A DNA stretch of 64,000 nt from Synechococcus sp. CCY 0621 (GTDB taxonomy: Bacteria > Cyanobacteriota > Cyanobacteriia > PCC-6307 > Cyanobiaceae), in contig NZ_JAFKRH010000015.1 of NCBI RefSeq assembly GCF_019038465.1, positions 186,001-250,000 of the forward strand. Reading direction: 5' to 3'. The position numbers and the translations under genes are program-made. The notes under the pieces are model-generated. The model was not told the origin of the DNA, made no database searches, and worked only from the letters and a program-made list of their open reading frames with translations. Position 1 is the stretch's first letter, and each line of letters starts with the position of its first letter. Shown here in pieces: positions 34,615 to 54,899 of the stretch.

Positions 34615-35103
34615 TTGACGGTTTTCGAAGGCCGCTTCACCGATGTCGCCGATCTGCGGATCGGCCTGGTGATCGCCCGTTTCAACGATCTGGTGACCGG
34701 CAAGCTGCTGAGCGGCTGCCTAGATGCCCTCTCCCGCCACGGCATTGATGTGGGCCCCGAGAGTAGCCAGCTCGACGTGGCCTGGGTGCCGGGCAGCTTC
34801 GAGATCCCCCTGGTGGCCCAGCGACTCGCCGCCACCGGCCGCTACCAGGTGGTGATCACCCTGGGGGCGGTGATCCGCGGCGACACGCCCCACTTCGATG
34901 TGGTGGTGGCCGAGGTGAGCAAGGGGGTGGCCGCCGTGGCCCGCGACACCGGCGTGCCGGTGATCTTCGGGGTTCTCACCACCGACACCCTGCAGCAGGC
35001 CCTGGAGCGGGCCGGCATCAAGAGCAACCTGGGCTGGAGCTATGGCCTCCAGGCCCTGGAGATGGGCAGCCTGATGGCCGCCCTGCCCAAGCAACAGCCA
35101 TGA
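34615..35103 (+). CDS. ribH: 6,7-dimethyl-8-ribityllumazine synthase
   Basis: RibH makes the lumazine precursor of riboflavin. The 162-residue protein has [43 protein letters not shown] with the catalytic His, and [19 protein letters not shown]. The start is a TTG at 34615, because no ATG is available upstream of the first conserved strand. Its stop overlaps the rfbA start (ATGA). It is divergent from mutS. Confidence 0.96.
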
Positions 35104-36008
35104 ACCGCAAGGGACTCATCCTGGCGGGGGGCAGCGGCACGCGGCTGGCGCCCCTCACCACCGCTGTCAGCAAGCAGCTGGTGCCGGTGTACGACAAGCC
35201 GATGATCTACTACCCGCTCAGCACGCTGATGCTGGCGGGCATCCGCGAGGTGCTGGTGATCACCACCCCCACCGACCGTCCCGCCTTCGAGCGGCTGCTG
35301 GGGGATGGCGCGGCCTGGGGCATGGAGATCCGCTATGCGGTGCAGCCCAGCCCCGATGGCCTGGCCCAGGCGTTCCTGATCGGCGCCGATTTCCTTGACG
35401 GCGCCCCGGCGGCCCTGGTGCTGGGGGACAACCTGTTCCACGGCCATGACCTGATCCCCCAGCTGCAGGGGGCCAACGGCGAACGGCCGGGGGCAACGGT
35501 GTTTGCCTATCCGGTGAGCGACCCGGAGCGCTACGGGGTGGTGGAGTTCAGCGGTGACGGCCGGGTGCTGAGCATCGAGGAGAAGCCGGCCCAGCCGCGC
35601 AGCCGCTACGCCGTGACGGGCCTGTACTTCTACGACCACACGGTGGTGGAGCGGGCCCGGCAGGTGCGCCCCTCGCCGCGGGGGGAACTGGAGATCACCG
35701 ACCTCAACCAGCTCTACCTTGAGGAGGGACTGCTGCGGGTGGAGCTGATGGGTCGGGGCATGGCCTGGCTGGACACGGGCACCCCTGATTCCCTGCACGA
35801 AGCCGCCAGCTACATCCGCACCCTGGAGAAGCGTCAGGGCCTCAAGGTGGGCTGCCCCGAGGAGGTGGCCTGGCGCCTCGGCTGGATCGACCACGGCCAG
35901 CTGGAGCGCCTGGCCCTGCCCCTGAAGAAATCCGGCTACGGCGACTACCTGCTGCGCCTGCTGCAGGAGGCCGCCAGCGACCACCTGGCCCTGGAGCCCC
36001 AGCGATGA
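35100..36008 (+). CDS. rfbA: Glucose-1-phosphate thymidylyltransferase
   Basis: RfbA/RmlA makes dTDP-glucose, the entry to dTDP-rhamnose and other dTDP-6-deoxysugars. The 302-residue protein has [17 protein letters not shown], the [20 protein letters not shown] core, VLGDNLFHG and [16 protein letters not shown]. It overlaps ribH and rfbC by 4 bases on each side, so translation is coupled through the three genes. dTDP-glucose 4,6-dehydratase (rfbB) and rfbD are absent from the window and must lie elsewhere. Confidence 0.97.
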
Positions 36009-36604
36009 ACGTGCAGTTCCTGGCCATCGAAGGCCCCCTGCTGCTCACCCCGGCGGTCTATGCCGACGAGCGGGGCTGGTTCAGCGAAAGCTGGAACCGG
36101 CGCCGCTTCGCCGATGCCCTCGGCAAGGCGGACGCCGACGCCCCGGAGTTCGTGCAGGACAATCACTCCCGCTCCCTGCAGGGGGTGTTGCGGGGCCTGC
36201 ATTTCCAGCGGCAGCCTCACGCCCAGGGCAAGCTCGTGCGTTGCACGCTGGGGGAGGTGTTCGATGTGGCCGTCGACCTGCGCCAGGACTCCGCCACCCT
36301 GGGCCACTGGGTGGGCGAGCGGCTCAGCGCCGAGAACCAGCACCAGCTCTGGGTGCCGGTGGGCTTCGCCCATGGCTTCCTCACCCTCAGCGCGGTGGCC
36401 GAGGTGCAGTACAAGACCGCTGGGTACTGGAGCCGGGAGTGCGAGCGCTCCCTGGCCTGGAACGACCCGGCCATCGGCATCGACTGGCCCCTGGGGGAGC
36501 TCCCAGAGCCCCACCAGCCCCTGCTGGCCCCCAAGGACGCCGCCGCCCCCGGTCTCGGGGCCCTGGCGGCCGCCGGGGATCTGTTCGCGCCCGACAACGT
36601 GTGA
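36005..36604 (+). CDS. rfbC: dTDP-4-dehydrorhamnose 3,5-epimerase
   Basis: RfbC/RmlC epimerises dTDP-4-keto-6-deoxyglucose on the way to dTDP-L-rhamnose. The 199-residue cupin has [14 protein letters not shown], the QDNHSRS motif, [19 protein letters not shown] with the catalytic His, and [13 protein letters not shown]. The ATG overlaps the rfbA stop. The product feeds rhamnose-containing surface glycans, consistent with the downstream polysaccharide island. Confidence 0.96.
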
Positions 36605-38512: not shown

Positions 38513-39247
38513 CTAATGAGCTTCACGACATATCCTCGGTAGAACCCATTCGCCTCGCGCCACTCTCATGCGGGCAATTTCCAGATCGAGTGGATAATTA
38601 ATGTCGAAGCCCTCCGCTTCAGATGTCAGAAATGGAACAATTAGATGTCCGGCGATTGAACCGGTTTCGGCATAGCAAGAAAAGCGAGCTATCTCGAGGC
38701 TGGCATTCTGTACATAAATCTCTGGCAGCGCGGCCATCTGCGAACTATGCCATGGTGTTCCATCCTGTTCAAAGGGAAGAAGCGGCGTCATGAAGGGGCC
38801 ATTCATTCTCCACATCTTGCCGGGATGAAGACTGGTTTTTTCAACGGCACGGATGGAATCGGCTCGAGAGTTGTCCTGCAGAATCGCCAGGGCACGACGG
38901 ATGGTGTCCGCTTGGCGGAATGGGCTGGTGGGACGCAGAATTGAAAAGTAGTCAATGGGTGCATCGACGAAGCAGGATTCGAAAAACCATCGCACCCAGC
39001 TGATGTCCGGTGAGTTGGACTGCGCTGTTGATGTGGGGCGCAGTTCAGCTACGGTGCCGCCATAGGAACGGGCGATGTCAGCATAGGTTGCGCTGTCGGT
39101 GATGCAGTGAACAGCATCGAAACAGCCGCTCTCGAGTGCCGCGGAGATGCTGTAGGACAACAGGGGATGCCCGGCCAGCTCAGCCACGTTCTTATCCGGC
39201 AGTCGGGTGGAGCCGCTGCGGGCAGGGATGAGGGCAATTCGCATCAT
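38513..39247 (-). CDS. NeuA-family cytidylyltransferase (CMP-nonulosonate synthetase)
   Basis: The 244-residue protein has the nucleotidyltransferase start RIALIPARSGSTRLPDKNVA, HPLLSYSI, the ILRPTSPFR motif and a C-terminal GFDINYPLDLEIA. These match CMP-N-acylneuraminate/CMP-KDN synthetases, which activate a nine-carbon keto-acid with CTP. It overlaps the HAD phosphatase gene by 4 bases and is last in an operon containing a NeuB synthase. It could also activate an eight-carbon acid such as Kdo, but KdsB sequences look different. Confidence 0.85.
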   Translation of the reverse strand: MMRIALIPARSGSTRLPDKNVAELAGHPLLSYSISAALESGCFDAVHCITDSATYADIARSYGGTVAELRPTSTAQSNSPDISWVRWFFESCFVDAPIDYFSILRPTSPFRQADTIRRALAILQDNSRADSIRAVEKTSLHPGKMWRMNGPFMTPLLPFEQDGTPWHSSQMAALPEIYVQNASLEIARFSCYAETGSIAGHLIVPFLTSEAEGFDINYPLDLEIARMRVARGEWVLPRICREAH

Positions 39248-39750
39248 GGGGCTGGAGAACTAGCCGACTCAATGGCGTCGCCGATGAGATCGCAGATCTC
39301 GCGGACGGCCCCCTGGCCCCCAGGGCGATCGGTGATGATCGCGGCATGCTTAAAGACGGAGGGGTACGCATCAGCAACGGTGAAAGCGATGCCGACAGAT
39401 CTCATGGCATCAATGTCGTTGATGTCGTTGCCGACGAAGGCGGCGTGCTCTAAAGCGATACCATGCTCGCCACACACCTTGGCAACGACTTCAGCCTTGT
39501 CTCCAACGGACTGATGCACAGGAAGTTGAAGTTTCTCGGCCCGGCGGCTCACAACTGGATTCACCTCAGTGGAGATGATGAACTGGATCAGCCCCAGCGA
39601 GCGAAGTCTAGAGATGCCGAATCCATCAAATCTGGAGCAACGAACGTACTCCACTCCATTGGAATCGACCAGAACATGATTATCAGTGAATACCCCGTCA
39701 AAGTCGTAGAAAATGATTTGAATGTTTCTGAGGTCAGGGTAGGAGACCAT
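39244..39750 (-). CDS. KdsC/YrbI-type HAD phosphatase
   Basis: The 168-residue protein is a cap-less HAD phosphatase: IIFYDFDGVFTDN (nucleophile Asp and acid Asp), RFDGFGISRLRSLGL, ISTEVNPVVSRRAEKL, the Lys of GDKAEVV, and FVGNDINDIDAM with the metal-binding Asp residues. KdsC relatives remove phosphate from 3-deoxy keto-acids (Kdo-8-P; KDN-9-P in Bacteroides). Placement between neuB- and neuA-like genes supports a nonulosonate-9-phosphate as the substrate. It ends in an ATGA overlap with the neuA-like gene. Confidence 0.88.
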   Translation of the reverse strand: MVSYPDLRNIQIIFYDFDGVFTDNHVLVDSNGVEYVRCSRFDGFGISRLRSLGLIQFIISTEVNPVVSRRAEKLQLPVHQSVGDKAEVVAKVCGEHGIALEHAAFVGNDINDIDAMRSVGIAFTVADAYPSVFKHAAIITDRPGGQGAVREICDLIGDAIESASSPAP

Positions 39751-39816
39751 GTTGTAGGAGCCAGGAACGACGAGGAGCGACAGACTCGGGCAACCAAAGT
39801 ATCGAAACTGGACTGC

Positions 39817-40857
39817 TTAGCCAGGGCCGGATAACTGCTCATAGCGAATGGGCATGCCCTGATCAATTGAAGCGATGGCTTTCTGACCGAGAATGGAGTT
39901 GCTTTCGCGCACAGGAATGTACGTCGTCTCGAAGATCTTGCCGGTGAGCTTGTCAAGCGTAATGACATCACCGGGGCTGAGTGGCACTCGCGCGGCCAAT
40001 GATTTCCCCAGCTTTTTGAACACAGGCTCGGTGCCCAGGCTTTCAGTTGGCTTGGGTGGCATCATTTCGGGAATGCGCTTGATGTCACGGGCGAATCGCC
40101 GGAAGCCATCGGGTTCCAGCGCAAAGCTATGGTCTGTTCCCTTCCACGAACGGTTGAGAGTCACGTGCTTCTCAAACACCCGTGCACCACACATGTATCC
40201 AACAGGACCACTAACGATTCCGTTAAAGTGGTCGGACAGTCCAATCGTGATCGTTGGGTAATCATTCAGAAAGCGCTCGATACGTTGCAATCCCAAATGA
40301 TTGTGGTCGCAGGGATACTCTGACACGCAATGCAGGAGAGCGATTTCGTCGTGGTAACGCAGAATGGTGTCAACACTGTTTCGAATCTGCTCATCGTTTG
40401 CTCCCCCAGTGCTTACCACGACGGGTATGCCGGTTTGGGCGATACGATCGATAAAAGGAAGATTCCCGATGTCGAAGGAGGCAATCTTCAGCAGGTCGAT
40501 CTGCAGGTCAACCAGCAGCTCAAGGCTGTACTCGTCAAACGGTGTCGACATGAACAGAGCCCCAGCTTCGCGGCACTTTGCGCGTAGAATTCGTTTCTCA
40601 TCGGGAGTCAGTTCAAGTTGCTCGCGATGCTCGCCGTAGGTGGGGCCGAACGCATTTTCACTATCGTATGGTTTATTGTAGGCGTCTTCAGAAAAAAGAT
40701 AGCGATTGTTTCTGGTCTGGAACTTAATGACATCAGCTCCGGCTGAGGCGAAGCGGTGAATGTATTCGAGCGCATTTTCAAGTTTGCCTTGGTGATTCTG
40801 TCCCACCTCGGCGATAATCAGAGACTGATGGGAAGACCTCAGATGTTTTAGCATCAT
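39817..40857 (-). CDS. NeuB-family N-acylneuraminate (or KDN-9-P) synthase
   Basis: The 346-residue protein has a TIM barrel (IIAEVGQNHQGKLENALEYI, ADVIKFQTR, FMSTPFDEYSLELL, LLKIASFDIGNLP, ALLHCVSEYPC, IGLSDHF) and EKHVTLNRSWKGTDH. A C-terminal antifreeze-like SAF domain (GKSLAARVPLSPGDVITLDKL) is also present. NeuB condenses phosphoenolpyruvate with a six-carbon acceptor (ManNAc, its 6-phosphate, or mannose-6-P) to give a nine-carbon keto-acid. The neighbouring phosphatase suggests that a phosphorylated acceptor is used. It follows the GT gene by 21 bases. Confidence 0.92.
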   Translation of the reverse strand: MMLKHLRSSHQSLIIAEVGQNHQGKLENALEYIHRFASAGADVIKFQTRNNRYLFSEDAYNKPYDSENAFGPTYGEHREQLELTPDEKRILRAKCREAGALFMSTPFDEYSLELLVDLQIDLLKIASFDIGNLPFIDRIAQTGIPVVVSTGGANDEQIRNSVDTILRYHDEIALLHCVSEYPCDHNHLGLQRIERFLNDYPTITIGLSDHFNGIVSGPVGYMCGARVFEKHVTLNRSWKGTDHSFALEPDGFRRFARDIKRIPEMMPPKPTESLGTEPVFKKLGKSLAARVPLSPGDVITLDKLTGKIFETTYIPVRESNSILGQKAIASIDQGMPIRYEQLSGPG

Positions 40858-40878: not shown

Positions 40879-41997
40879 CTAACATGTGAAACTCTGCCAT
40901 TGGCTCAGCTGTTTGGAGAGTCTCTGCAGTTCGCTTCGGTTGGTTTGATGCATCCTCTCAAACACGGCCAGACGGCTTCTCCCATCTTCGGGCAGGGGCC
41001 AATCCCGACACAGATCAGACACGGAGCTCGTGTCCATCGGATCCACATAGCAGGCGGCATCATCCAGAATCTCCCGAAAGACAGGTATGTCGCTGCAGAT
41101 GATGCGGCAGTTCTCACTCAACGCCTCAATCAGTGGCAGTCCGAATCCTTCCACGAAAGACAATTGCCAGTAGTAAAGATTCATACGGTAGAGATTCACT
41201 AGCTCATCCTCTGAGAGCCTTTCCAGCACCTGTACTCCATGACTCAAGGGCCGAGCCAGTTCCTGTACAGCATTTGCATTGTCGGTAACGATGGTCAGCC
41301 GCCACCTGGAGTCTGTCTTCAAAAGCTTTCCAAAGGCAGCGAGGACTCCTGGTAGATTCTTGTTGGCGGTGTTGGCTGCAACGGTCAGGATCGAAAAATC
41401 AGAACGCTTCGCAAATTCGTCTTTCTCAATCTGGGAGTCTTCAACAATCTCCAGACGCTTTGAGGTTCCCTTTAGAAGATAGTAGAGGACGAAACTAGTG
41501 GCGGTGGGTCTGTTGCGAAGCTGGTCGACTCGATTTTTGTTGGTATAGGTGGTGACGAGCAATAAGTCTGCCCAGCGCAGGTTGGCAGCGACGATGAGCT
41601 TATAGTAAAGATATTGACTGAAGCGGTAAACAGTTGGCATGTCTTGCCAGTAGAGGTCATTGATGACCACAACATTGTGGGTACTACCGAAGACTCCGCA
41701 GGAACCGACAGAGATCACAATGTTGTCTGTTCTGCCGTTCCGCAGGAAATAGATCTGTCTGCTCAAGTAGCGACGCCAGAGCATCTGAGGCAGTTGTATG
41801 GAGCGAATGCTGACGTCACAGTCAGAGAGGCGCATGCGGAGATACGCAGCGTTGGAAGGCCCGCTGACCACGCACTCAATTGGAAACGGGAGGACTTGCA
41901 GGCTTAGGGACTTGGCCAGTTCAATGCCATACTGGAACGTCCCTTTCAGGTACCCGCCATCTTTGGCGTAGCTGAAATCAATGATCAGGTGCTGCAT
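40879..41997 (-). CDS. GT4-like glycosyltransferase
   Basis: The 372-residue protein begins MQHLIIDFSYAKDGGYLKGT, a typical GT-B first strand with glycine loop. The C-terminal half has ILTVAANTANKNLPGVLAAF, WRLTIVTDNANAVQ, the acidic motif VEGFGLPLIEALSENCRIIC and IPVFREILDDAACYVD. These features fit retaining GT1/GT4 family enzymes. It overlaps the upstream KpsS-like gene by 20 bases and precedes neuB, so it presumably builds the same glycan. Donor and acceptor unknown. Confidence 0.85.
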   Translation of the reverse strand: MQHLIIDFSYAKDGGYLKGTFQYGIELAKSLSLQVLPFPIECVVSGPSNAAYLRMRLSDCDVSIRSIQLPQMLWRRYLSRQIYFLRNGRTDNIVISVGSCGVFGSTHNVVVINDLYWQDMPTVYRFSQYLYYKLIVAANLRWADLLLVTTYTNKNRVDQLRNRPTATSFVLYYLLKGTSKRLEIVEDSQIEKDEFAKRSDFSILTVAANTANKNLPGVLAAFGKLLKTDSRWRLTIVTDNANAVQELARPLSHGVQVLERLSEDELVNLYRMNLYYWQLSFVEGFGLPLIEALSENCRIICSDIPVFREILDDAACYVDPMDTSSVSDLCRDWPLPEDGRSRLAVFERMHQTNRSELQRLSKQLSQWQSFTC

Positions 41998-43576
41998 GAA
42001 AGGGTGTCCCAATTGCAATGCCGTCCAAAATAGCCTTTTCGCCATTGCTGGCTTCGGATGCCGTGAGAAGTTCCCACTCGATCATGCGTCGCCTGAATAG
42101 GTGGAACGCATACCGTTCAGCACGTTCTTGATAGGGAAGAGTTCGATGCTCCAGCATGTCCTGCACCACCGTGGGCAGATCTTCGCCTCGTTGCAGATCA
42201 CGACCCACCTTTTTTCCCCGTAGGCAGGATTCACCGCAGATGAGTACGGGCTTGCCCAGATACGCGGCCTCCACAGCCGTCTTTGTGGCATACACCACCA
42301 CCAGATCACTGGCTTCCAGCAGTTGATAGGTACTGATGGGTTCGTCGGCCTCAATGATCGAGAGATTGGCGCAGCGGTGGGCGGTCTCCCGGAGAACTTC
42401 TGCAGATGTCGTTGCCGCTATCCTTCGGCCGGTTACTTCGGCGGGATGGATCCTCACCACGAACCGTGTACCAGGAAGTTTCTCTGCGCAACGACCGATG
42501 TCACGCAGCCAGCTTTGCATATCGGTGTAAGTGTTGGCGTTGAAGTGAGCCTGTGCGTCCCAGTCCACGTTCGTGAGGACGGAGACAAGCGGGCTACCTT
42601 GGTCGCCGGAAAACACAGGCGACTTTGACTCGGCGCCCCTGTGTACAAAGCTCACCCAGTCCTGAGTACCTGTCCGGCGTGATGTCATGTAGTTCTTCAG
42701 CCAGACGCGATCAGCAGCGCTGAGCACATGATTCTCCCATGTAGCGTTCGGTTCTTCAATGAGTTGGCGGTGATAGGTATCGCCGTGGCTCAAGAGAAGC
42801 GTATGACGACGATATCCCTTGTGCCAGGTGACAACTCGGACTCCGTGAGCATGGGCAGTGGCTACGATGACCCCCTGAGGGACATAGAGACCATGATTGA
42901 CAACAATAACTTCTGGGGTGTAGGTCTCCAGTATGGATTCCACTCGCAGAACGGTTTGGCAAGCGGCTTCCGCAAATCGACGAACGACTGAGGTGGGCAC
43001 TTGGCTGGGTTCGACAACCTTGCCATAGAAACGAATCAAGCCCGAGCGTACGTGTTCGCTGATTGGCACGCCGCGGAAGCTGGCCTCTTGCCCATGTAGA
43101 AATCCCTGAATCCACCCATCCATGTCTGCTTTATCCGCCTCATGCACATGTGCATATGTAAAGACTTGGAAATGGTGGCGGATATAGGCATTGAAGGATC
43201 CGGAACAGTAGGTGCAGGTGTGTCCTGGTCCCTTCTGAGCAAACTCCCGATCGCTAAGGAACCGCTCGCTCTCACATAGGGAACAGGCAGTCAGGCTACC
43301 CTCACATATAAGAAAAGCGACGGATGCTCCTTGTTTTTGAAGTCGAATACCCAGACATATATCTAGACTGGAGATATCTACGTTTCCAAGGGTCGAACAG
43401 GCAATCAGAATTCGCTTCTGCCCATAACTGCTGGAACCAGGCCTTTTTTCAGCCTTTGAGAAAAGAGTCAGGGCCCTGTGTGCACGACGTCTCAGGCGAA
43501 CCGGCAAAACCGTGCGACTCCATATGCTGCCGAACGCCGGCAATCGCTTGATCCGCTTCCGGATGCTAAACTTCAT
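41978..43576 (-). CDS. KpsS/KpsC-like capsule biosynthesis protein with Cys cluster
   Basis: The 532-residue protein has a basic N-terminus and a GT-B-like layout: KRILIACSTLGNVDISSLDI, then two paired cysteines (CSLCESERF and HTCTYCSG, about residues 97-130) that could bind zinc. It continues NHGLYVPQGVIVATAHAHGV, TWHKGYRRHTLLLSHGDTYH, EEPNATWEN, RFVVRIHPAEV and DLVVVYATKTAVEAAYLGKPVL. The C-terminal motifs resemble KpsS/KpsC-type Kdo transferases and polysaccharide phosphotransferases. It heads the minus-strand nonulosonate operon. A clear paralogue lies at 60884-63118. Confidence 0.75.
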   Translation of the reverse strand: MKFSIRKRIKRLPAFGSIWSRTVLPVRLRRRAHRALTLFSKAEKRPGSSSYGQKRILIACSTLGNVDISSLDICLGIRLQKQGASVAFLICEGSLTACSLCESERFLSDREFAQKGPGHTCTYCSGSFNAYIRHHFQVFTYAHVHEADKADMDGWIQGFLHGQEASFRGVPISEHVRSGLIRFYGKVVEPSQVPTSVVRRFAEAACQTVLRVESILETYTPEVIVVNHGLYVPQGVIVATAHAHGVRVVTWHKGYRRHTLLLSHGDTYHRQLIEEPNATWENHVLSAADRVWLKNYMTSRRTGTQDWVSFVHRGAESKSPVFSGDQGSPLVSVLTNVDWDAQAHFNANTYTDMQSWLRDIGRCAEKLPGTRFVVRIHPAEVTGRRIAATTSAEVLRETAHRCANLSIIEADEPISTYQLLEASDLVVVYATKTAVEAAYLGKPVLICGESCLRGKKVGRDLQRGEDLPTVVQDMLEHRTLPYQERAERYAFHLFRRRMIEWELLTASEASNGEKAILDGIAIGTPFHAAPDH

Positions 43577-44560: not shown

Positions 44561-44582
44561 TGATGTGCTGCCTGCACTGATC

Positions 44583-45023
44583 ATGACGGAACCCCTGCCA
44601 ACACCAGAATTCTTTGCACCCAGGGACATGGGCCCACGATCCTGGGGGACAGAGACCTTGGTTGCCCTTTCTCCTGGGAAGTATTCCCTCAAGCATCTTT
44701 TCGTAAAGGCGGGTTCACGCGGTGGCTTGCAGTATCACCATTTCAAGGATGAGAGCGCCTTTCTTGTCAGCGGTACGATGCGCCTTCGATACGACGATGG
44801 AAGCGGCAAACTTGTTGAGAAACTGGTTGGTCCTGGCGCAAGTTTTCGTTTCCCGCCAGGTTCGGTCCACCAGGAAGAAGCCATCACTGACTGTGTGCTG
44901 ATTGAGGCTTCTACTCCTCACGCCAATGACAGGGTTCGTATGGAAGCCGTCTACGGCATTGATGCAGGTGATGATAACCCTCTCCCTTCCACTCGCCCTG
45001 ATGAAGTGATCCTCATCACGTAA
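44583..45023 (+). CDS. Cupin-domain protein
   Basis: The 146-residue protein is one cupin barrel: GSRGGLQYHHFKDESAFLVS (His-His-Glu type first motif) and GASFRFPPGSVHQEEA (second motif His). It probably binds one metal ion. Proteins like this near polysaccharide genes include sugar isomerases/epimerases and mannose-6-P isomerase-like enzymes, but no substrate can be assigned. It follows the GT2 gene by 22 bases and converges with the aldolase gene at 45031. Confidence 0.82.
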   Translation: MTEPLPTPEFFAPRDMGPRSWGTETLVALSPGKYSLKHLFVKAGSRGGLQYHHFKDESAFLVSGTMRLRYDDGSGKLVEKLVGPGASFRFPPGSVHQEEAITDCVLIEASTPHANDRVRMEAVYGIDAGDDNPLPSTRPDEVILIT

Positions 45024-45030
45024 GCCGTCG

Positions 45031-45807
45031 CTAGTGATTCAGCTCCGCGAGAAGGCCGCCGGCCCCTCCGCTTAGCAGCACCGTATCGGTGGTCACTGCA
45101 ATGAACTGAAAGCCCTCTTCCCGCCGGCGTCGAATGGACTCTCGTTCCAGTGCGATCACACCGGCGGCGACACCAGCTCTTTGGGCGGCCACTAGAACAC
45201 GTCCTGCTGCTGACACGACACTTGGATGGTCTACCTGCCCAAGGAGCCCCATACTTGCGGAAAGGTCATACATGCCCACAAACACGAGATCAAGGCCGGG
45301 GACGGAGACAATCTCATCAATGGCGTCAACGGCCGCTATATGTTCAATTTGGGCGATGGCTAGAATTTCGTTATCTGCCACTTTCGCGTAGGTGCCGGCT
45401 CCATTCACCCCCCAGCGCGCTGGGGCCATGGCTGGACCGAACCCTCTGACTCCTTGGGGTGGATATCTCACAGCAGCCACTGCTTGATAGGCCTCCTTGG
45501 CGGAATTGACCATCGGGGTGATGATTCCCATGGCCCCGGCATCCAGATGTGCTTTGGCGAGCCACGGCAAATTCTCTGCAATTCGCACAAGTGGTACGGC
45601 GTCTGTTCCCTGGCTGGCCTGGATCATCAGCTGGGCTGTTTCCACTGAGATCGCACCATGCTCGGTGTCGACCCAGATCCAGTCGAATCCTTGAGCGGCC
45701 ATCAGTGCCGCTACCGTCGGGCAGGCCAACTGCAGGATGACTCCGTAGGAGGGTTCTCCTGCTCTGAGTCTTCCCTTGAGCTGTAGAAGCGCATTCATTC
45801 TGTTCAT
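45031..45807 (-). CDS. HpcH/HpaI-family class II aldolase
   Basis: The 258-residue TIM barrel has YGVILQLACPTVAALMAAQG, the WVDTEHGAISVETAQ motif with catalytic and metal-binding residues, VRIAENLPWLAKAHLDAGAMG, IITPMVNSAKEA and GLDLVFVGMYDLSASMG. The family cleaves or forms 2-keto-3-deoxy acids from pyruvate and an aldehyde. Its place next to a NeuB cassette and a cupin suggests keto-acid sugar metabolism, but whether it builds or recycles is unknown. An ATG at 45807 is used (TTG one codon earlier is also possible). Confidence 0.88.
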   Translation of the reverse strand: MNRMNALLQLKGRLRAGEPSYGVILQLACPTVAALMAAQGFDWIWVDTEHGAISVETAQLMIQASQGTDAVPLVRIAENLPWLAKAHLDAGAMGIITPMVNSAKEAYQAVAAVRYPPQGVRGFGPAMAPARWGVNGAGTYAKVADNEILAIAQIEHIAAVDAIDEIVSVPGLDLVFVGMYDLSASMGLLGQVDHPSVVSAAGRVLVAAQRAGVAAGVIALERESIRRRREEGFQFIAVTTDTVLLSGGAGGLLAELNH

Positions 45808-46372
45808 CAATTGACAGCCTGTTCATGGCACTCCAATTATCCTTGGAATTCCTGGTATTCACTAGTCGGACGATCTTGCCTCATTACATGTAACGTATGG
45901 ACACAGCCCAGACCTCTTCTGCTAGAGGACCTGCTGGTTGTTCACGTTGTGCCCAGTGTCATCACGATGAGGCCCGCAGCCTGGCCTTCCAGAAATCCTG
46001 GATCATCAGACCTGGCAAGGAGCTCAGCCCCTGCATTTCCTGGCAGCATTTTCCTAAGTCATCTACTCATCCCACACTGCCTTGGGCATTGTTTTGCGAT
46101 CGCGCTGCCGACATCCATGGCCTTGAACGGCCACTACCAACGGATCGCTGCATGTAATCAAAATCTGGCTAGCGAATTTCTCGCCTTCCTTCTCATCAGA
46201 GTCCTTCAGTGCGTATGAGGGTTGAGTTCGCAAGCCTGGGCATTAAAAACGGCAGACTGCCACCATCCTGACAGCCTTAATGCGGCGCTTGTTGTGTCCT
46301 GGAGTTGATGACGCAGCAGCTGGACTCAACATCTTTGTGTTAGGGTGACCGGTGAATCACGGTTGGGTCATT
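45808..46372. other. Intergenic region with non-coding-looking short ORFs
   Basis: About 560 bases lie between the aldolase start and the GT-C-like gene. Two overlapping plus-strand ORFs of 86 and 135 codons occur here, but they have no recognisable motif, mixed base composition and out-of-frame overlap, so I do not call them. One HIP1 octamer is at 46096. The tail of the region must hold the promoter for the gene at 46373 and another for the aldolase. Confidence 0.5.
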
Positions 46373-49273: not shown

Positions 49274-50257
49274 ATGCACCTCTGGCTCCTAAGATGGATG
49301 AAATTATCGGGACAGCGGGAGCCAGAGCCAGTGCCAATGATCTCTGTGGTCTCTCCTGTGTACCAAGCTGCAGAGGCGCTCCCGCATCTGGTCAGGGAAC
49401 TATCCAATACACTCCAGAATCTGACTGATCGCTACGAAATCATCCTTGTCGATGATAGAAGTAAGGATCAGTCTTGGCAGTCAATTGAAGTTGAGTGCCG
49501 CAAGTCCAGTCATGTGATTGGTCTCAGGCTTAGTCGAAACTTTGGACAGCACTCTGCAATTACTGCTGGACTGAGCCATGCAACAGGAGACTGGATTGTC
49601 GTCATGGACTGTGATCTTCAGGACAGACCTGATCAAATTCCTGCTCTTTATCGCAAGGCAACCGAAGGATATGATGTCGTCACAGCAAGGAGACTGATTA
49701 GGCAAGACTCCATATTGAAGAGATTTTATTCACGCTGTTTCTATTCCTTTTTTAGCTACCTTACAGGCACAACCCAAGATGCCTCAATTGCCAACTTTGG
49801 TATTTACCGTAAGAAGGTTATTCGGGCAATCCTTAGCATGGAGGACAACATTCGATACTTTCCGGCCATGGTCCAATGGGTTGGATTTTATTCGACGTCT
49901 GTTGACGTCGCCCACGCTTCACGAGTGCATGGAAGATCTACCTATAACTTGCAGAAAATGCTTCGGCTTGCGATTGACGTCATTATTTCCTTTTCGGACA
50001 AGCCCTTGAGGCTAGTCGCTCAAGGAGGGTTAGCCCTTTCTTGCCTGTCTATGCTTATTGGCTTTATTTATTTGGGGGGTTATGCGCTTGGTGTTATCAA
50101 GGTCGCTGGCTATGCAAGTATCATTATATCCATTTGGCTTACTGCGGGCTTTAACATATTTGTTTTGGGTCTCGTTGGAATTTATGTGGGTAAGGCCTTT
50201 GAAAAAATCAAGGGTCGTCCAGTCTTCATTGTTGATGAGGTTCTGAGTCTTGATTGA
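49274..50257 (+). CDS. GtrB/ArnC-like polyprenyl-phosphate glycosyltransferase
   Basis: The 327-residue GT2 protein has ISVVSPVYQAAEALPHLV, YEIILVDDRSKDQSW, LRLSRNFGQHSAITAGL and the metal motif VVMDCDLQDRPDQIP. Two C-terminal membrane helices follow (ALSCLSMLIGFIYLGGYAL and AGFNIFVLGLVGIYVG). This architecture transfers a sugar from a nucleotide to undecaprenyl phosphate on the cytoplasmic face, for later use outside. A GtrA-like flippase gene is two genes downstream. Its stop overlaps the next gene by 8 bases. Confidence 0.9.
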   Translation: MHLWLLRWMKLSGQREPEPVPMISVVSPVYQAAEALPHLVRELSNTLQNLTDRYEIILVDDRSKDQSWQSIEVECRKSSHVIGLRLSRNFGQHSAITAGLSHATGDWIVVMDCDLQDRPDQIPALYRKATEGYDVVTARRLIRQDSILKRFYSRCFYSFFSYLTGTTQDASIANFGIYRKKVIRAILSMEDNIRYFPAMVQWVGFYSTSVDVAHASRVHGRSTYNLQKMLRLAIDVIISFSDKPLRLVAQGGLALSCLSMLIGFIYLGGYALGVIKVAGYASIIISIWLTAGFNIFVLGLVGIYVGKAFEKIKGRPVFIVDEVLSLD

Positions 50258-50984
50258 GTATCTTGACTGGGATACGAAGTTCTTCGAGCTTAAGGTTGGA
50301 AGGTGCACTGTTGACTCTGACTTGTCGTGGAGTACAGCACAGGTGCAAGCAGGTGATGGAGACTTCAAGCTGGTGTATATCTACTCTGGCTACGAACTAT
50401 CAGGTTCGTCGAATGATTGCTTCCATCTGCTTGATGTCGGAGGACAGATTGAATTTGACAAGACTCCTTTGGCTCATCCTGAGGACCAAGAGACCGGCAG
50501 GAATATCTCTTCCTATCGAAGCCTGCCCCTGTCTCCCGCTATCTGCCATCTTGCTTATACTAGTGGGCGACTGTCTAGGTTTAGGATTGATCCACACATC
50601 CCGAGGACTAAATATGAATCGCTTTATGCTACTTGGGTCGCCAATACCCTGCAACGCCATCCATTCGGATCCGTCTTTGTTTATCAGATGGACGGTCACC
50701 CTGTTGGGCTTATCACGTTTGAGTGGGATCGTTCAGTTTGCACGATCGGCCTGCTAGCAGTTCTTGACTCAGCCCAGGGTAGGGGAATCGCTACAAAGCT
50801 GATCAGGCATGTTGAGAGCTTCTGCATGCGAAGACGGATAGGAAAGCTACGAGTCAAAACTCAACTCTCTAACCTCAGTGCACGATCTCTGTATCTAAAA
50901 TGTGGCTTCGTTGTGCGGGAACGCTCATATCTTTATCACGCCCGTGCGTCGTCACTTGGAGATAAGTCAGTCAGCCTCCTTTGA
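50250..50984 (+). CDS. WecD-like GNAT N-acetyltransferase
   Basis: The 244-residue protein begins IEYLDWDTKFFELKVGR, the dTDP-fucosamine acetyltransferase (WecD) opening (DWDTxFFxxxVGR). The C-terminal GNAT fold shows CTIGLLAVLDSAQGRGIATKLIRH (acetyl-CoA loop QGRGIA) and NLSARSLYLKCGF. WecD acetylates the amino group of dTDP-4-amino-4,6-dideoxygalactose made by WecE. Here wecE is three genes on in the same operon. The TTG start at 50250 overlaps the end of the GtrB gene by 8 bases. Confidence 0.88.
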   Translation: MIEYLDWDTKFFELKVGRCTVDSDLSWSTAQVQAGDGDFKLVYIYSGYELSGSSNDCFHLLDVGGQIEFDKTPLAHPEDQETGRNISSYRSLPLSPAICHLAYTSGRLSRFRIDPHIPRTKYESLYATWVANTLQRHPFGSVFVYQMDGHPVGLITFEWDRSVCTIGLLAVLDSAQGRGIATKLIRHVESFCMRRRIGKLRVKTQLSNLSARSLYLKCGFVVRERSYLYHARASSLGDKSVSLL

Positions 50985-51008
50985 CTCTCAAGTTACTTGC
51001 ATGTCTGC

Positions 51009-51392
51009 ATGAATCAACATCTCGAGCTCCGTAGCCAACTCTTCAAATACTTACTTGTTGGTGTCACTTCCAATGGTGCCGCCTATGGCTTCTACCTTCT
51101 CATTACGTCATTTGGCCTAAGTCCAGTTCTCGGCATGTCGATCGTCTACGTCATGGCGGCCGGCATTAATTATTTCTTGAACAGATCCTGGACATTCTCT
51201 TCGAATGCTCCCGTGCGCAGATCTTTGTTTAGATATGTCGTGGTTCAGTGCGTTGGTTATGCCACGAATCTTGTTCTGTTAGCCGTGCTTCATTATGCTC
51301 TTGGTGTGCCTCACTATCTTGCGCAGCTAGCTGGTGTTACGATAGTGGCTGGTGAGCTATTTCTTCTGAGCCGCTTTTTTGTTTTTGTATAG
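51009..51392 (+). CDS. GtrA-family membrane protein
   Basis: The 127-residue protein has four hydrophobic helices, with FKYLLVGVTSNGAAYGFYLL, INYFLNRSWTFSS (the GtrA N-x2-W-T-F motif) and ELFLLSRFFVFV. GtrA proteins are thought to flip polyprenyl-linked sugars made by GtrB partners; the GtrB gene is two genes upstream. An ATG at 51009 gives the family start. Confidence 0.92.
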   Translation: MNQHLELRSQLFKYLLVGVTSNGAAYGFYLLITSFGLSPVLGMSIVYVMAAGINYFLNRSWTFSSNAPVRRSLFRYVVVQCVGYATNLVLLAVLHYALGVPHYLAQLAGVTIVAGELFLLSRFFVFV

Positions 51393-51401
51393 CTCAAGCC
51401 T

Positions 51402-52160
51402 ATGAAAGCAACCCTTCCCTCTTCCCCGTTCCCTCCACAAGCCTTTATCGATCTTGCTGATGCGGAAGATCAGCATTGGTGGTTTCGGGCGAGAAGTCAG
51501 ATTCTCATTTGGATTCTGAAGACAAGAGTCTATGGGCTGAGCAACTTTCTCGAAGTCGGTTGCGGCACTGGTTATGTTCTAAGAAGCATTTCAGACGCAC
51601 TCCCGTGTGTAGGCCTGGAAGCCACTGAATACTTTCAGGATGGCATGTTGATTGCCATGCAGCGGGTTCCAAATTGTCATTTTAGACAACTCGATGCCAC
51701 TGAGATGGCCGAAGCAGATGTCTATGACTGCATTGGATCTTTTGACGTTTTGGAGCATATTCAGGCTGATGAGCGCGTGCTTCTTAACTTTCATCGTGCT
51801 CTGCGTTCAGGCGGGTTTCTTGTGCTGACTGTTCCGCAGCACGCCTGGCTTTGGTCAGGGGCGGACGAATTCGCTCACCATGTGCGCCGCTACTCACGAT
51901 CTGAACTTCGAGAGAAGGTTCTTCGTGCAGGTTTCCACATTCAGGAGTGCACTTCTTTCGTCAGTATCCTTTTGCCAGTCATGGCTCTCCAGAGACTTAC
52001 GGCAAGTCGAAAGACCTATCGCCTGGCTGATGAGCTAAGGATCAATCCCATTGTGAATTCCATGCTGTATTTTGTCATGCAGCTTGAGATCGTTCTGTTG
52101 CGCGCTGGACTACGCTTTCCTGCCGGTGGTTCTCTTCTCCTGCTGGCGCGTAAGCCATGA
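51402..52160 (+). CDS. Class I SAM-dependent methyltransferase
   Basis: The 252-residue protein has a Rossmann SAM-binding loop LEVGCGTGYVLRSI, a following acidic strand end (VGLEATE), DVYDCIGSFDVLEHI (motif post II), and LRSGGFLVLTVPQHAWLWS. It resembles methyltransferases found in polysaccharide clusters. Hydrophobic patches near the C terminus may allow membrane association. It overlaps the wecE-like gene by 4 bases. The methyl acceptor (sugar or lipid-linked sugar) is unknown. Confidence 0.85.
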   Translation: MKATLPSSPFPPQAFIDLADAEDQHWWFRARSQILIWILKTRVYGLSNFLEVGCGTGYVLRSISDALPCVGLEATEYFQDGMLIAMQRVPNCHFRQLDATEMAEADVYDCIGSFDVLEHIQADERVLLNFHRALRSGGFLVLTVPQHAWLWSGADEFAHHVRRYSRSELREKVLRAGFHIQECTSFVSILLPVMALQRLTASRKTYRLADELRINPIVNSMLYFVMQLEIVLLRAGLRFPAGGSLLLLARKP

Positions 52161-53284
52161 TTCCATTCAACAAACCTTATCTTACCGGGCGAGAACTTCA
52201 TCACATCTCTGAAGCCCATGCTCGAGGTCAGCTTGCAGGCGATGGCCACTTCACCAAGAAGTGCAATACTTGGCTTGAGGAGCGAACAGGCTGTCATAAA
52301 GCACTGTTGACCCATTCATGCACTGCGGCTCTTGAGATGGCGGCGATTCTCGCTGACATCCAGCCTGGTGATGAGATCATCATGCCCTCATACACTTTCG
52401 TGTCTACGGCTAATGCTTTTGTGCTTCGAGGTGGTGTCCCTGTCTTTGTTGATATTCGCGAAGACACTCTCAACATTGATGAACGCCTGATTGAGCCCGC
52501 TATAACCTCCCGCACCAAGGCCATTGTTCCAGTTCATTATGCTGGTGTCGGCTGTGAAATGGATACGATTATGGCGATTGCCAGCAGGCATAACCTGCTG
52601 GTTATTGAGGATGCGGCCCAAGCTGTGATGGCCACCTATAAGGGGCGTCTGCTTGGCTCGATCGGTGACCTCGGCTGCTACTCCTTCCACGAAACAAAGA
52701 ACATTATATCTGGTGAGGGAGGTGCGCTCCTCATCAACAACCCTGCATTTGCTGAGCGTGCCGAAATCATTCGTGAGAAGGGTACCAACCGCACCCAGTT
52801 CTTTCGTGGACAGGTGGACAAATATACCTGGGTTGATATTGGATCCTCCTATCTTCCTGGTGAATTGATCGCAGCTTTCCTCTGGGCCCAAATGGAGGAG
52901 TCCGACTTGATCACTGCCAGTCGTCTAAAGATATGGAATGACTACCATGAGTCCTTCCAGGTTCTTGAGGAGGCAGGGCGTCTCCGTAGACCTGTCATCG
53001 CTGATGACTGTGTTCACAACGCCCATATGTACTACCTGCTCCTGGCTGACTTGGCAGAAAGGAGCGCATTTATTTCTTGCATGCTGAAGCGGGATATCAG
53101 GTGCGTGTTTCACTATGTTCCGCTCCACAATGCGAAGATGATGATTGCATCCCATCTGCCACCGGCCTTGCTCCCTGTGACAGAGTCGGTAGCAGCATGT
53201 CTTGTGAGGTTGCCTTTGTGGATTGGTCTCAATCATGATCTAGTTATTGAAGCAGTCCTTGATGTTTCCAATATATCGGGCTGA
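52157..53284 (+). CDS. wecE: WecE/RffA-type dTDP-4-amino-4,6-dideoxygalactose transaminase
   Basis: The 375-residue PLP enzyme starts IPFNKPYLTGRELHHI and has SCTAALEMAAILADIQPGDEI, MPSYTFVSTANAFVLRGG, the IEDAAQAVMATYKGRLLGSIG region and FHETKNIISGEGGAL with the PLP Lys. It transfers an amino group to dTDP-4-keto-6-deoxyglucose. The motif set is that of RffA/WecE rather than other DegT enzymes. With the WecD-like acetyltransferase upstream it would give dTDP-Fuc4NAc. Stop at 53284 ends the operon. Confidence 0.9.
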   Translation: MIPFNKPYLTGRELHHISEAHARGQLAGDGHFTKKCNTWLEERTGCHKALLTHSCTAALEMAAILADIQPGDEIIMPSYTFVSTANAFVLRGGVPVFVDIREDTLNIDERLIEPAITSRTKAIVPVHYAGVGCEMDTIMAIASRHNLLVIEDAAQAVMATYKGRLLGSIGDLGCYSFHETKNIISGEGGALLINNPAFAERAEIIREKGTNRTQFFRGQVDKYTWVDIGSSYLPGELIAAFLWAQMEESDLITASRLKIWNDYHESFQVLEEAGRLRRPVIADDCVHNAHMYYLLLADLAERSAFISCMLKRDIRCVFHYVPLHNAKMMIASHLPPALLPVTESVAACLVRLPLWIGLNHDLVIEAVLDVSNISG

Positions 53285-53757: not shown

Positions 53758-54899
53758 TCAAGCGGCCATGACCAACTTAGCTGGATCAATGGCGTTTTCT
53801 GGAAGCGGTTGATTGATCCAGACCACCCCCGGCTGACGCCAGCAGCGATTACCGCGGCTCCAGCGGCGGGGGTGTCGCTGGCGGGCCTGCTCGTAGACAC
53901 GGGCGCGGTGACGACAGAGTTCAATGGCCTGACCGCTCTGGCGCTGATCAGGCGTCACGAAACGGATGGAACTGTGGCGGTGCCTGTGGTTGTACCAGTC
54001 CACGAATGCACACGCCCAGCTGCAGGCCTCTTCCTGGCTGCGGAAGGGTCGCCTGGGGTAGTCCGGTCGGTACTTGACCGTGCGGAACAGCGACTCCGAG
54101 GAGGCATTGTCGTTGCTGACCCGTGGCCTGGAGAAGGATCTGAGGACCCCCAGCTCCTCCAGCCGGCTCTCCAGCGTGGCTGCCCGCATGGCATTGCCGT
54201 TGTCGGCATGGAGGATCAGCGGCTGGCGGCGGTCCTTGCAGATCCGCTCCCGCAGGCAGGCCCTGCCCACCAGATCAGCGGCGATCTGTGCGTCTTCCCG
54301 ATCCGCCACGTCCCAGGCCACGATCTTGTGGCTCCAGACGTCGATCACCAGGTACAGGTACAGCCACACCCCCCGAATGCTGGTGGGCAGGTAGGTGATG
54401 TCCCAGCTCCAGAGCTGATTCGGCCCCATGGCCTGCAGCCGTGGCACCGGTCTTGGCGCCTGGGGCGGACGCGCCCTCCCGCGGCGGTGGGCCTGGCCGT
54501 GGGTGCCCGGTGTCAACTACGTAGGCGGCCGCCTACTAATTGTCGCCGGACACCGCGGGCATGAAGCACCCGGTAGAAGCTCCGCTCCGAGCCGATGTAG
54601 AGCACCCGATCCGCCAGGACCGGCACGATCTGGCCCGGTGGCAACGCCGCAAATTCCGGCTGGTTGCAGGTCAGCAGGATCCGCTGGCGCTCATCATCGG
54701 AAAGCCGGTGAGACACCAGACTTGGACTCCCTTTACGGCGATCCAGTCCGTCCCCTACACCGGCGAACTGCTGCCGCCAGCGCTGCAGCGTGGTGAGCCC
54801 CACGCCAAGCAGAGCGGCGAGTGCACGGGCCCGTGCACCGGCAGCCATCGCCGCATCGAGGATCTCCAGGGCCTTGCGGCGATCGGCAGGAGATGTCAA
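53758..54899 (-). pseudogene. IS3 orfB transposase, interrupted
   Basis: The N-terminal part (54899 to about 54513) has LALLGVGLTTLQRWRQQF-like helix-turn-helix and LPPGQIVPVLADR, YIGSERSFYRVLHA. After a frame change it continues HGQAHRRGRARPP and the integrase core: LWSWDITYLPTSIRG (first Asp), ILHADNGNAM (second Asp), NDNASSESLFRTVKYRPD (Glu) and DWYNHRHRHSSIRFVTPDQR. The two halves are in different frames because of the insert at 54511-54552. The TTG start overlaps the orfA stop. Confidence 0.85.
54511..54552. repeat. 42-bp palindromic insert within orfB
   Basis: The sequence runs TGTCAACTAC at the left to TGTCGCCGGACA at the right. It has a perfect 16-bp palindrome at its centre (54521-54536, GTAGGCGGCCGCCTAC) and TGTC...GACA at the ends. 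It falls exactly where orfB should continue from LHA to HGQAH and destroys the frame. It may be a tiny mobile palindromic repeat or abutted ends of another IS. Confidence 0.6.

Follow-up and report, generated by a model that had tools for sequence, protein, structure and literature searches.

The window, a stretch of 64,000 nucleotides from Synechococcus sp. CCY 0621, harbors a compact trio of genes whose products belong to the NeuB, HAD and NeuA families (Table 1). The synthase and HAD genes are separated by 66 nt, and the HAD gene overlaps the cytidylyltransferase gene by 4 nt, an arrangement that the initial annotation had correctly described as adjacent and tightly spaced. The Pfam matches (PF03102 NeuB, 6e-64, for the synthase; PF08282, 3e-7, for the HAD protein; PF02348 CTP_transf_3, 1e-17, for the cytidylyltransferase) are far above chance, and catalytic HAD motifs are found in the cassette HAD. 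The trio is the 3' portion of a five-gene run (43576 to 38513) that opens with two glycosyltransferase genes. Because GC content in the region is mostly 47-56% (65% at 53.5-55 kb), compared with 70-76% upstream, the region looks laterally acquired.

Table 1. Cassette genes and other relevant features, in window positions
Feature	Position	Strand	Remarks
NANS-type nonulosonate(-9-phosphate) synthase (putative)	39817..40857	-	346 aa; PF03102 + SAF domain
C0-type HAD phosphatase, KdsC / KDN-9-P phosphatase relative	39244..39750	-	168 aa
CMP-ulosonate synthetase, NeuA/PseF type (putative)	38513..39247	-	244 aa; PF02348
Glycosyltransferase group 1	40879..42045	-	same gene run, 21 nt upstream of synthase
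GT-B protein, KpsC-like (Kdo transferase) fold	41978..43576	-	structure model
Single-domain cupin, mannose-6-phosphate isomerase domain-like	44565..45023	+	start codon provisional
GNAT gene	50250-50984		WecD-like, under cut-off
DegT aminotransferase	52157-53284		WecE-like, over cut-off

Across the genome, which comprises 3.23 Mb and is 100% complete, PF03102 matches the cassette synthase and nothing else. The reported lack of a NeuC epimerase and of Leg/Pse genes likewise extends to the entire genome at family cut-offs, as the best matches score 78.5 bits for NeuC (cut-off, 235.9) and 175 bits for PseB (cut-off, 407.75). The view that a surface nonulosonate would be notable in a cyanobacterium was, however, overstated: a NeuB homologue is present in 44 of the 149 genomes searched, this one included. 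Judged by sequence, nonulosonate genes are not rare in cyanobacteria; what is rare is the NANS-type synthase, detected by score in this genome and in genome G053. A literature search that covered titles and the beginnings of abstracts retrieved no account of cyanobacteria that synthesize KDN or a nonulosonate.

A NANS-type synthase and its probable phosphatase

The synthase contains a loop, PYDSENAFGPTYGEHREQLE, that resembles the TYGEHR loop of human NANS. At the Arg/Lys position of the loop, R or K is found in 39 of 39 subfamily rows, a figure that is partly built in, since the loop was among the criteria for delimiting the subfamily, and in 7 of 76 other synthases. The opposite distribution is seen for the arginine at position 314 of Neisseria meningitidis NeuB, a residue with a role in ManNAc binding: it is present in 54/76 of the other synthases and in 2/39 subfamily rows, and the window synthase lacks an equivalent. 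Equivalents of E25, K53, Q55, K129, S132, S154, S213, H215, H236 and D247 are kept. Hence, the protein combines the two features by which we recognize the NANS type: a TYGEHR/K loop and no Arg314 equivalent. Such a combination may separate synthases of phosphorylated sugars from those of free sugars, and would thus permit prediction of substrate use from sequence.

Other comparisons point in the same direction. The score of the synthase is 224.6 bits with the NeuB Neu5Ac synthase model TIGR03569, under the cut-off of 399.65, and 188.6 bits with the PseI model, under the cut-off of 340.25. In a quick tree, which left out SpsE and the Bacteroides thetaiotaomicron KDN-9-P synthase, the subfamily and NANS fall on one side with an SH-aLRT value of 92, below 95; alignment indicates that SpsE lacks a TYGEHR-type loop. 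Altogether, these data support the interpretation that the enzyme is neither an ordinary NeuB nor LegI or PseI. Within the tree, the window synthase groups with those of loci L037 and L038 in one clade, whose long branch measures 1.56 (SH-aLRT 100). The nearest relative is the synthase of L037 (Ciceribacter sichuanensis), with 62% identity; its neighbors encode an SDR, an aldehyde dehydrogenase (ALDH) and a transketolase, activities that are superfluous for plain KDN synthesis.

The surroundings of the synthase gene were compared in 80 named relatives, 37 loci with the NANS loop and 43 without it, using tblastn counts within the fetched flank. A KdsC-like HAD gene lies nearby in 13/37 NANS-loop loci and in 0/43 of the others (p=1e-5); no HAD is in reach at the remaining 24 of the 37. 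Because of this association, and given the NANS-type features of the synthase, the phosphorylated route preferred by the initial annotation is well supported.

The exact specificity of the phosphatase is less easily read. The score of the window HAD is 97.5 bits with the KDN-9-P phosphatase model NF058599 (BT1677 type), under the cut-off of 180, and it is similar with KdsC models (98.8 bits of 208, and 93.7 of 106.95 with TIGR01670). Two members of the wider set come closer to the KDN type: the L062 HAD passes the cut-off with 184.3 bits, and the L065 phosphatase reaches 169.1 of 180 bits. The pair Glu56/Lys67 of BT1677, which has a role in specificity, is kept in the whole set (14/14, window included), while the KdsC protein 3mn1 has Arg/Ser at these positions. 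Compared with BT1677, the window HAD shows C-S-R for F-N-T at 32-34 and N for D at 103. A literature search on the phosphatase found no paper.

Candidate enzymes upstream and downstream

A candidate for precursor supply is the cupin. Cupin genes adjoin neuB in loci L003, L038 and L042 and lie one gene off in L052, and their presence beside NANS-type synthases recurs in picocyanobacteria, in SAR11 and in one viral contig (viral contigs were searched with the cupin alone, and one locus was confirmed, L136, with the order NeuB (TYGEHR)-cupin-NeuA). Cupin matches above 100 bits occur in only 2 of the 149 genomes, this one and G053, which are the two with a NANS-type synthase. W-G, LQ-x-H, E, P-x-G-x-x-H and D-x-VR are common to the cupin and to the isomerase domain that ManC from the same genome already carries. 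Matches to PF01050, the type II phosphomannose isomerase domain, are weak: against a gathering score of 23.6, the window cupin scores 23.9 and the L042 cupin 23.0, and the cupins of L003 and L052 (E up to 0.01) and L038 (E up to 0.001) are unmatched. In the archaeal locus L065, the near-KDN phosphatase is fused to an isomerase-type cupin whose PF01050 score is over the cut-off. A fold search retrieved KdgF and CapF as closest, and also oxalate decarboxylase, all of them generic cupins. From its sequence and neighborhood, the cupin is likely to be the enzyme that converts fructose-6-phosphate into mannose-6-phosphate (Man-6-P) in this pathway. Loci L042 and L052 also lie near GmhA/HddA/HddC-like genes, named from sequence by eye, which brought up a heptose-7-phosphate as a conceivable substrate; no genes of this kind were seen among the scanned window ORFs.

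The best score of the cytidylyltransferase is with the PseF model (100.8 bits, under the cut-off of 205.7). It is nested among the NeuA proteins of loci with transketolase and ALDH, and distant from those of the KDN-like loci L062 and L065.

The structural model of the ORF at the head of the run (pLDDT 76.8) has KpsC Kdo transferases as its five best matches (Z 15.4-14.7, rmsd 3.6-3.8), while GT-B proteins other than KpsC, namely UDP-GlcNAc 2-epimerases and trehalose synthases, show Z values of 12.6-14.4 with larger rmsd. The fold is thus shared with the KpsC / WbbB beta-Kdo transferases (Z 15.4-12.6), at an identity of 10-19%. Relatives of this ORF are found at 7/37 NANS-loop loci. The model suggests that the protein is likely to be a transferase for a CMP-activated sugar.

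What the cassette might make

Family identities, NANS-type features of the synthase, and the association of such synthases with a phosphatase and, recurrently, with a cupin are evident in the sequences. The interpretation that we favor, with about as much confidence as doubt, is that the cassette encodes the phosphorylated, animal-type route to a CMP-activated nonulosonic acid. The cupin would turn fructose-6-phosphate into Man-6-P; the synthase would condense a hexose-6-phosphate, presumably Man-6-P, with PEP to yield a nonulosonate-9-phosphate (KDN-9-P); the HAD protein would strip the phosphate; the NeuA-type protein would activate the nonulosonate as a CMP sugar; and the KpsC-like protein would transfer it to the polysaccharide built by the neighboring glycosyltransferases. 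Man-6-P as substrate, over ManNAc-6-P or another sugar phosphate, and KDN as product are both plausible. With such a pathway, phototrophs and SAR11 would have a counterpart of the animal sialic-acid route that is laid down in a prokaryotic gene cluster and may be complete, starting with fructose-6-phosphate; a surface nonulosonate, if confirmed, would bear on the recognition of picocyanobacteria by phages and grazers.

The nature of the product admits other explanations. A tentative one, possible though somewhat unlikely, is that the same phosphorylated route ends in a CMP-ulosonate that is not KDN, with a simpler or different sugar in the cupin variant; in most relatives, the SDR would oxidize the nonulosonate, the transketolase would shorten or rebuild it, and ALDH would oxidize the result. 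Many relatives, in more than 10 phyla, carry transketolase, ALDH and SDR in place of the cupin, and for this reason a modified ulosonate may be the product of the subfamily. Of the 80 named loci, those with the NANS loop have a dedicated transketolase in 14/37 and ALDH in 16/37 cases, and those without it have each in 0/43. Membership of the window NeuA and KpsC-like protein in families from these loci, differences of the window HAD and NeuA from KDN-type members, and the long branch of the synthase clade are consistent with such a product. However, transketolase and ALDH of these families were not found in the Synechococcus genome itself (best matches, 27% and 32%), so that no remodeling is recognizably encoded there, and the shared NeuA may simply be tolerant.

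Synthesis of Neu5Ac by the animal route, in which NanE would provide ManNAc-6-P, the synthase Neu5Ac-9-P and the HAD protein its dephosphorylation, is improbable. Human NANS accepts both Man-6-P and ManNAc-6-P. An excerpt of PMC9000132 likewise credits the human enzyme with both phosphorylated products. A NanE over the cut-off is encoded in the genome and could provide ManNAc-6-P despite the lack of NeuC. NanE is, however, a core gene, present in 55/60 genomes (this one included) whether or not they have a NANS-type synthase; it is not close to the cassette, and the cupin points to Man-6-P. A Kdo or Kdo-like octulosonate made from arabinose-5-phosphate seems very improbable, even if the HAD protein scores about equally with KdsC and the transferase fold is Kdo-transferase-like. 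No KdsA was found in the genome, where the single PF00793 match reads as a DAHP synthase, and a Kdo pathway can consequently not account for the HAD gene; its product has Glu/Lys where 3mn1 differs and scores under the KdsC cut-off, and no NeuB-family enzyme is known to make Kdo. This reading was rejected. So was a route to legionaminic or pseudaminic acid whose remaining genes would be located elsewhere, which we regard as scarcely credible: PseF gives the best NeuA score, but PseF, PseI and, genome-wide, PseB all stay under their cut-offs in family and genome searches. The window aminotransferase is WecE-like, and together with the GNAT gene it types as a dTDP-Fuc4N gene rather than a Leg/Pse gene; no role for a phosphatase is known in Leg/Pse routes.

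A broader and rather doubtful proposal is that the NeuB(NANS-type)-HAD-NeuA families constitute an unrecognized CMP-ulosonate pathway, spread over more than 10 phyla and sister to KDN synthesis, with either a cupin or an SDR-transketolase-ALDH module. In the latter, the SDR would oxidize the sugar near its end, two carbons would be lost to transketolase, and ALDH would generate a chain-shortened ulosaric acid, to be activated with CMP and transferred by KpsC-like enzymes. This acid would be similar to Dha, a heptulosaric acid contained in plants. The linked transketolase/ALDH module suggests a sugar whose route of formation did not turn up in the literature searched.

Relationship to known pathways

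If the cassette does make a CMP-nonulosonate by the phosphorylated route, its closest parallel is the animal NANS pathway, with which it shares the TYGEHR/K loop, the lack of an Arg314 equivalent, a separate phosphatase and a CMP synthetase; it differs in being prokaryotic, in its KdsC-type HAD and in the PMI-like cupin that is likely to supply its precursor. The Bacteroides parallel drawn in the initial annotation holds in part. The KDN set of B. thetaiotaomicron, which consists of KDN-9-P synthase, the BT1677 phosphatase and CMP-KDN synthetase, has the same three enzyme classes and the HAD pair Glu56/Lys67 in common with the window; the likeness weakens at the HAD score on the KDN-9-P phosphatase model and at the placement of NeuA among those of transketolase loci.

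Two microbial systems offer further comparison. The alga Prymnesium parvum makes CMP-KDN de novo through a KDN-9-P synthase (PMC6200933); it is microbial like the window but eukaryotic, and the comparison is one of pathways. In Serratia marcescens, the neuA-neuB genes of KL1/KL2 belong, according to an excerpt of PMC9000132, to a capsule locus that makes KDN and some Neu5Ac. The window resembles this locus in having NeuB and NeuA, but the Serratia NeuB has an extra COG1082 domain, and the excerpt names no phosphatase. Several kin of the same genus as the window strain have NeuB frames of ~645 aa, unlike the window synthase.

The cassette and its surroundings

The three adjacent genes described in the initial annotation were recovered exactly where it had placed them, with unambiguous family matches. 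Synthase and HAD phosphatase are separated by 66 nt, HAD and cytidylyltransferase overlap by 4 nt, and together they are the last three genes of a five-gene run whose first two members overlap by 68 nt and end 21 nt before the synthase. A whole-genome search found one NeuB gene in this 3.23 Mb, 100% complete genome. The GC content of the cassette region is mostly 47–56% vs 70–76% to its left, and the closest synthase among the matches listed (62%) belongs to an alphaproteobacterium, Ciceribacter. Lateral acquisition of the region is therefore likely. An IS-type transposase gene also lies within the low-GC region.

Coordinates of the cassette and other features in the window
Feature	Position	Strand	Remark
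Cytidylyltransferase (NeuA-type)	38513-39247	minus	ORF and family match
HAD phosphatase (KdsC-like)	39244-39750	minus	ORF and family match
Synthase (NeuB-type)	39817-40857	minus	ORF and family match
Second gene of the run	40879-42045		
Putative transferase, first gene of the run	41978-43576		
Cupin	44565-45023	opposite to synthase	3.7 kb from synthase
HpaI/GarL-type aldolase	45031-45810	minus	convergent with cupin
RmlA and RmlC	35100-36604		
dTDP-Fuc4NAc-type set	50250-53284	plus	WecD-like acyltransferase, methyltransferase, WecE-like aminotransferase
Transposase	53758-54516	minus	integrase core

Synthase type and the probable phosphorylated route

The synthase falls short of the curated Neu5Ac synthase and PseI models by a wide margin. 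When the genome_contigs collection was scanned with it, at least 586 stretches matched; in the best 80 loci, which were kept, identity grades from 62% (L037) and 55% (L038, from SAR11) through about 30 loci at 32–45% to ordinary NeuBs at about 33%. Both the metal ligands and the core catalytic residues are conserved, and the alignment revealed a PYxxxNSxGxTYGEHRxxLE-like loop common to the window synthase and its group, which resembles that of human NANS, whose sequence we take to be ERPYTSKHSWGKTYGEHKRHLEF. At the loop Arg position, 39/39 subfamily rows have R/K vs 7/76 others, the 39/39 being a dependent figure as the loop was partly used to draw up the subfamily; the position of Arg314 (N. 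meningitidis NeuB numbering) is R in 2/39 vs 54/76.

In a quick tree of 116 rows, a branch with SH-aLRT 92 (not >95) sets apart NANS, 38 rows of the subfamily and seven further ones, and the window synthase, L037 and L038 form a long-branched clade (SH-aLRT 100). The subfamily members named in this tree span Pseudomonadota, Cyanobacteriota, Nitrospirota, Thermodesulfobacteriota, Chloroflexota, Armatimonadota, Actinomycetota, Gemmatimonadota, Acidobacteriota, Planctomycetota and Bdellovibrionota, plus one archaeon. Only one other genome of 149 (own included), G053, has a synthase above 200 bits. NeuB frames of about 645 aa in three same-genus genomes (L004, L005, L008) recall by length the NeuB-COG1082 protein of KDN-producing Serratia; the L005 translation runs on into a second domain.

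Gene neighbourhoods were counted in the 80 loci, 37 with R/K at the loop position (NANS-loop loci) and 43 without. At ≥60 bits against the window HAD, a KdsC-like HAD was found in 13/37 NANS-loop loci vs 0/43 others (p=1e-5; best 80 of at least 586), while 24/37 had none in reach, flanks being unequal and some contigs ending within reach. The phosphorylated route preferred in the initial annotation is thus likely, and we hold it with considerable confidence. Glu56 and Lys67 of BT1677, the KDN-9-P phosphatase of B. thetaiotaomicron, are kept in all 14 HADs of the set (Arg and Ser in the KdsC structure 3mn1). However, F32-N33-T34 of BT1677 is C-x-R in 11, and position 103 is Asn in all, of the 12 HADs other than those of L062 and L065, which equal BT1677 at 32, 34 and 103. 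Against the KDN-9-P phosphatase model (cut-off 180), L062 passes (184.3), L065 nearly does (169.1) and the window HAD scores 97.5 bits. The window's gene set is therefore akin to the Bacteroides KDN set without demonstrably being identical to it.

The sugar produced

KDN as the product is, in our judgement, evenly balanced, mainly because the window NeuA nests among NeuAs of loci that bear SDR, aldehyde dehydrogenase (ALDH) and transketolase (TK) genes. Microbial KDN is already known from Serratia capsules (KDN with minor Neu5Ac, PMC9000132) and Prymnesium (CMP-KDN, PMC6200933); none of the papers listed by our literature searches concerned cyanobacterial KDN. The genome encodes NanE, which leaves room for Neu5Ac-9-P as the synthase product, but 55 of the 60 genomes compared, this one among them, have NanE and we consider this product improbable. 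A genome-wide search at family cut-offs bore out the claimed lack of NeuC and of Pse genes, the latter for PseB. The sole PF00793 match of the genome reads as DAHP synthase, so there is no Kdo pathway needing KdsC. The window's DegT and GNAT genes are assigned to dTDP-Fuc4NAc-type synthesis and belong to a set of that type; RmlA and RmlC are also encoded.

Among the best 80 of at least 586, SDR is present in 25/37 NANS-loop loci vs 10/43 others, ALDH in 16/37 vs 0/43 and a transketolase-like protein in 14/37 vs 0/43; the families were also typed by Pfam. The order in L037 is NeuB-HAD-SDR-ALDH-NeuA-TK. Dedicated TK and/or ALDH genes accompany NANS-type NeuB, mostly with SDR and in many phyla, at L037, L039, L041, L043-L046, L048-L050, L053, L054, L056-L059, L063, L067 and L082. 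A search of the window's own genome turned up no TK and no ALDH belonging to these families. The actinobacterial L032, L063 and L067 have NeuB-SDR-TK, and no NeuA was found there; genes read from sequence as hydroxyphenylglycine synthesis adjoin it in L032, which suggests a natural-product cluster.

Putative transferase and cupin

The first gene of the run has no Pfam match and no PDB sequence match, and matches surface-polysaccharide transferase models of NCBIfam weakly. Its relatives (≥120 bits) occur in 7/37 NANS-loop loci vs 0/43 others (best 80 of at least 586). The best fold matches of its AlphaFold model (pLDDT 76.8, 8 sequences) are KpsC Kdo transferases (Z 15.4–14.7, rmsd 3.6–3.8 over 268–288 residues), with the WbbB Kdo transferase ranked lower; H377-P378 is invariant in 8/8 sequences.

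The cupin recurs beside related synthases. In G053, cupin, synthase and HAD are consecutive, and an enolase-superfamily gene and one further gene lie between HAD and NeuA (L135:2906-4883). The cupin adjoins the synthase in SAR11 (L038, L042), and in L052 the synthase is followed by one gene, the cupin and NeuA. When IMG/VR was queried with just the cupin, 126 pattern-matching stretches emerged, one of them confirmed (L136:2896-5139), ordered synthase (TYGEHR)-cupin-NeuA; the NeuB frame of this viral contig stops early, at 307 aa, and lacks a complete SAF domain. Across the 149 genomes, the cupin exceeds 100 bits only in the own genome (341) and G053 (170), the next being 64.

Members of the cupin family can be aligned to the isomerase domain at the C-terminus of the ManC encoded in this genome; common to both are putative metal ligands (Q-x-H, E, H) and a tail reading D-x-V-R. 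The window cupin passes the Pfam isomerase model marginally (23.9 vs 23.6 needed), and the other four family members miss the threshold. In an archaeal ORF (L065:8012-8872, order NeuA-NeuB-HAD:cupin), a KDN-9-P-phosphatase-like HAD is joined to a cupin of the mannose-6-phosphate isomerase type, which passes the same model at 25.8. We regard the window cupin as a candidate dedicated phosphomannose isomerase. Next to it is a putative 2-keto-3-deoxy sugar acid aldolase, which could act on ulosonic acids.
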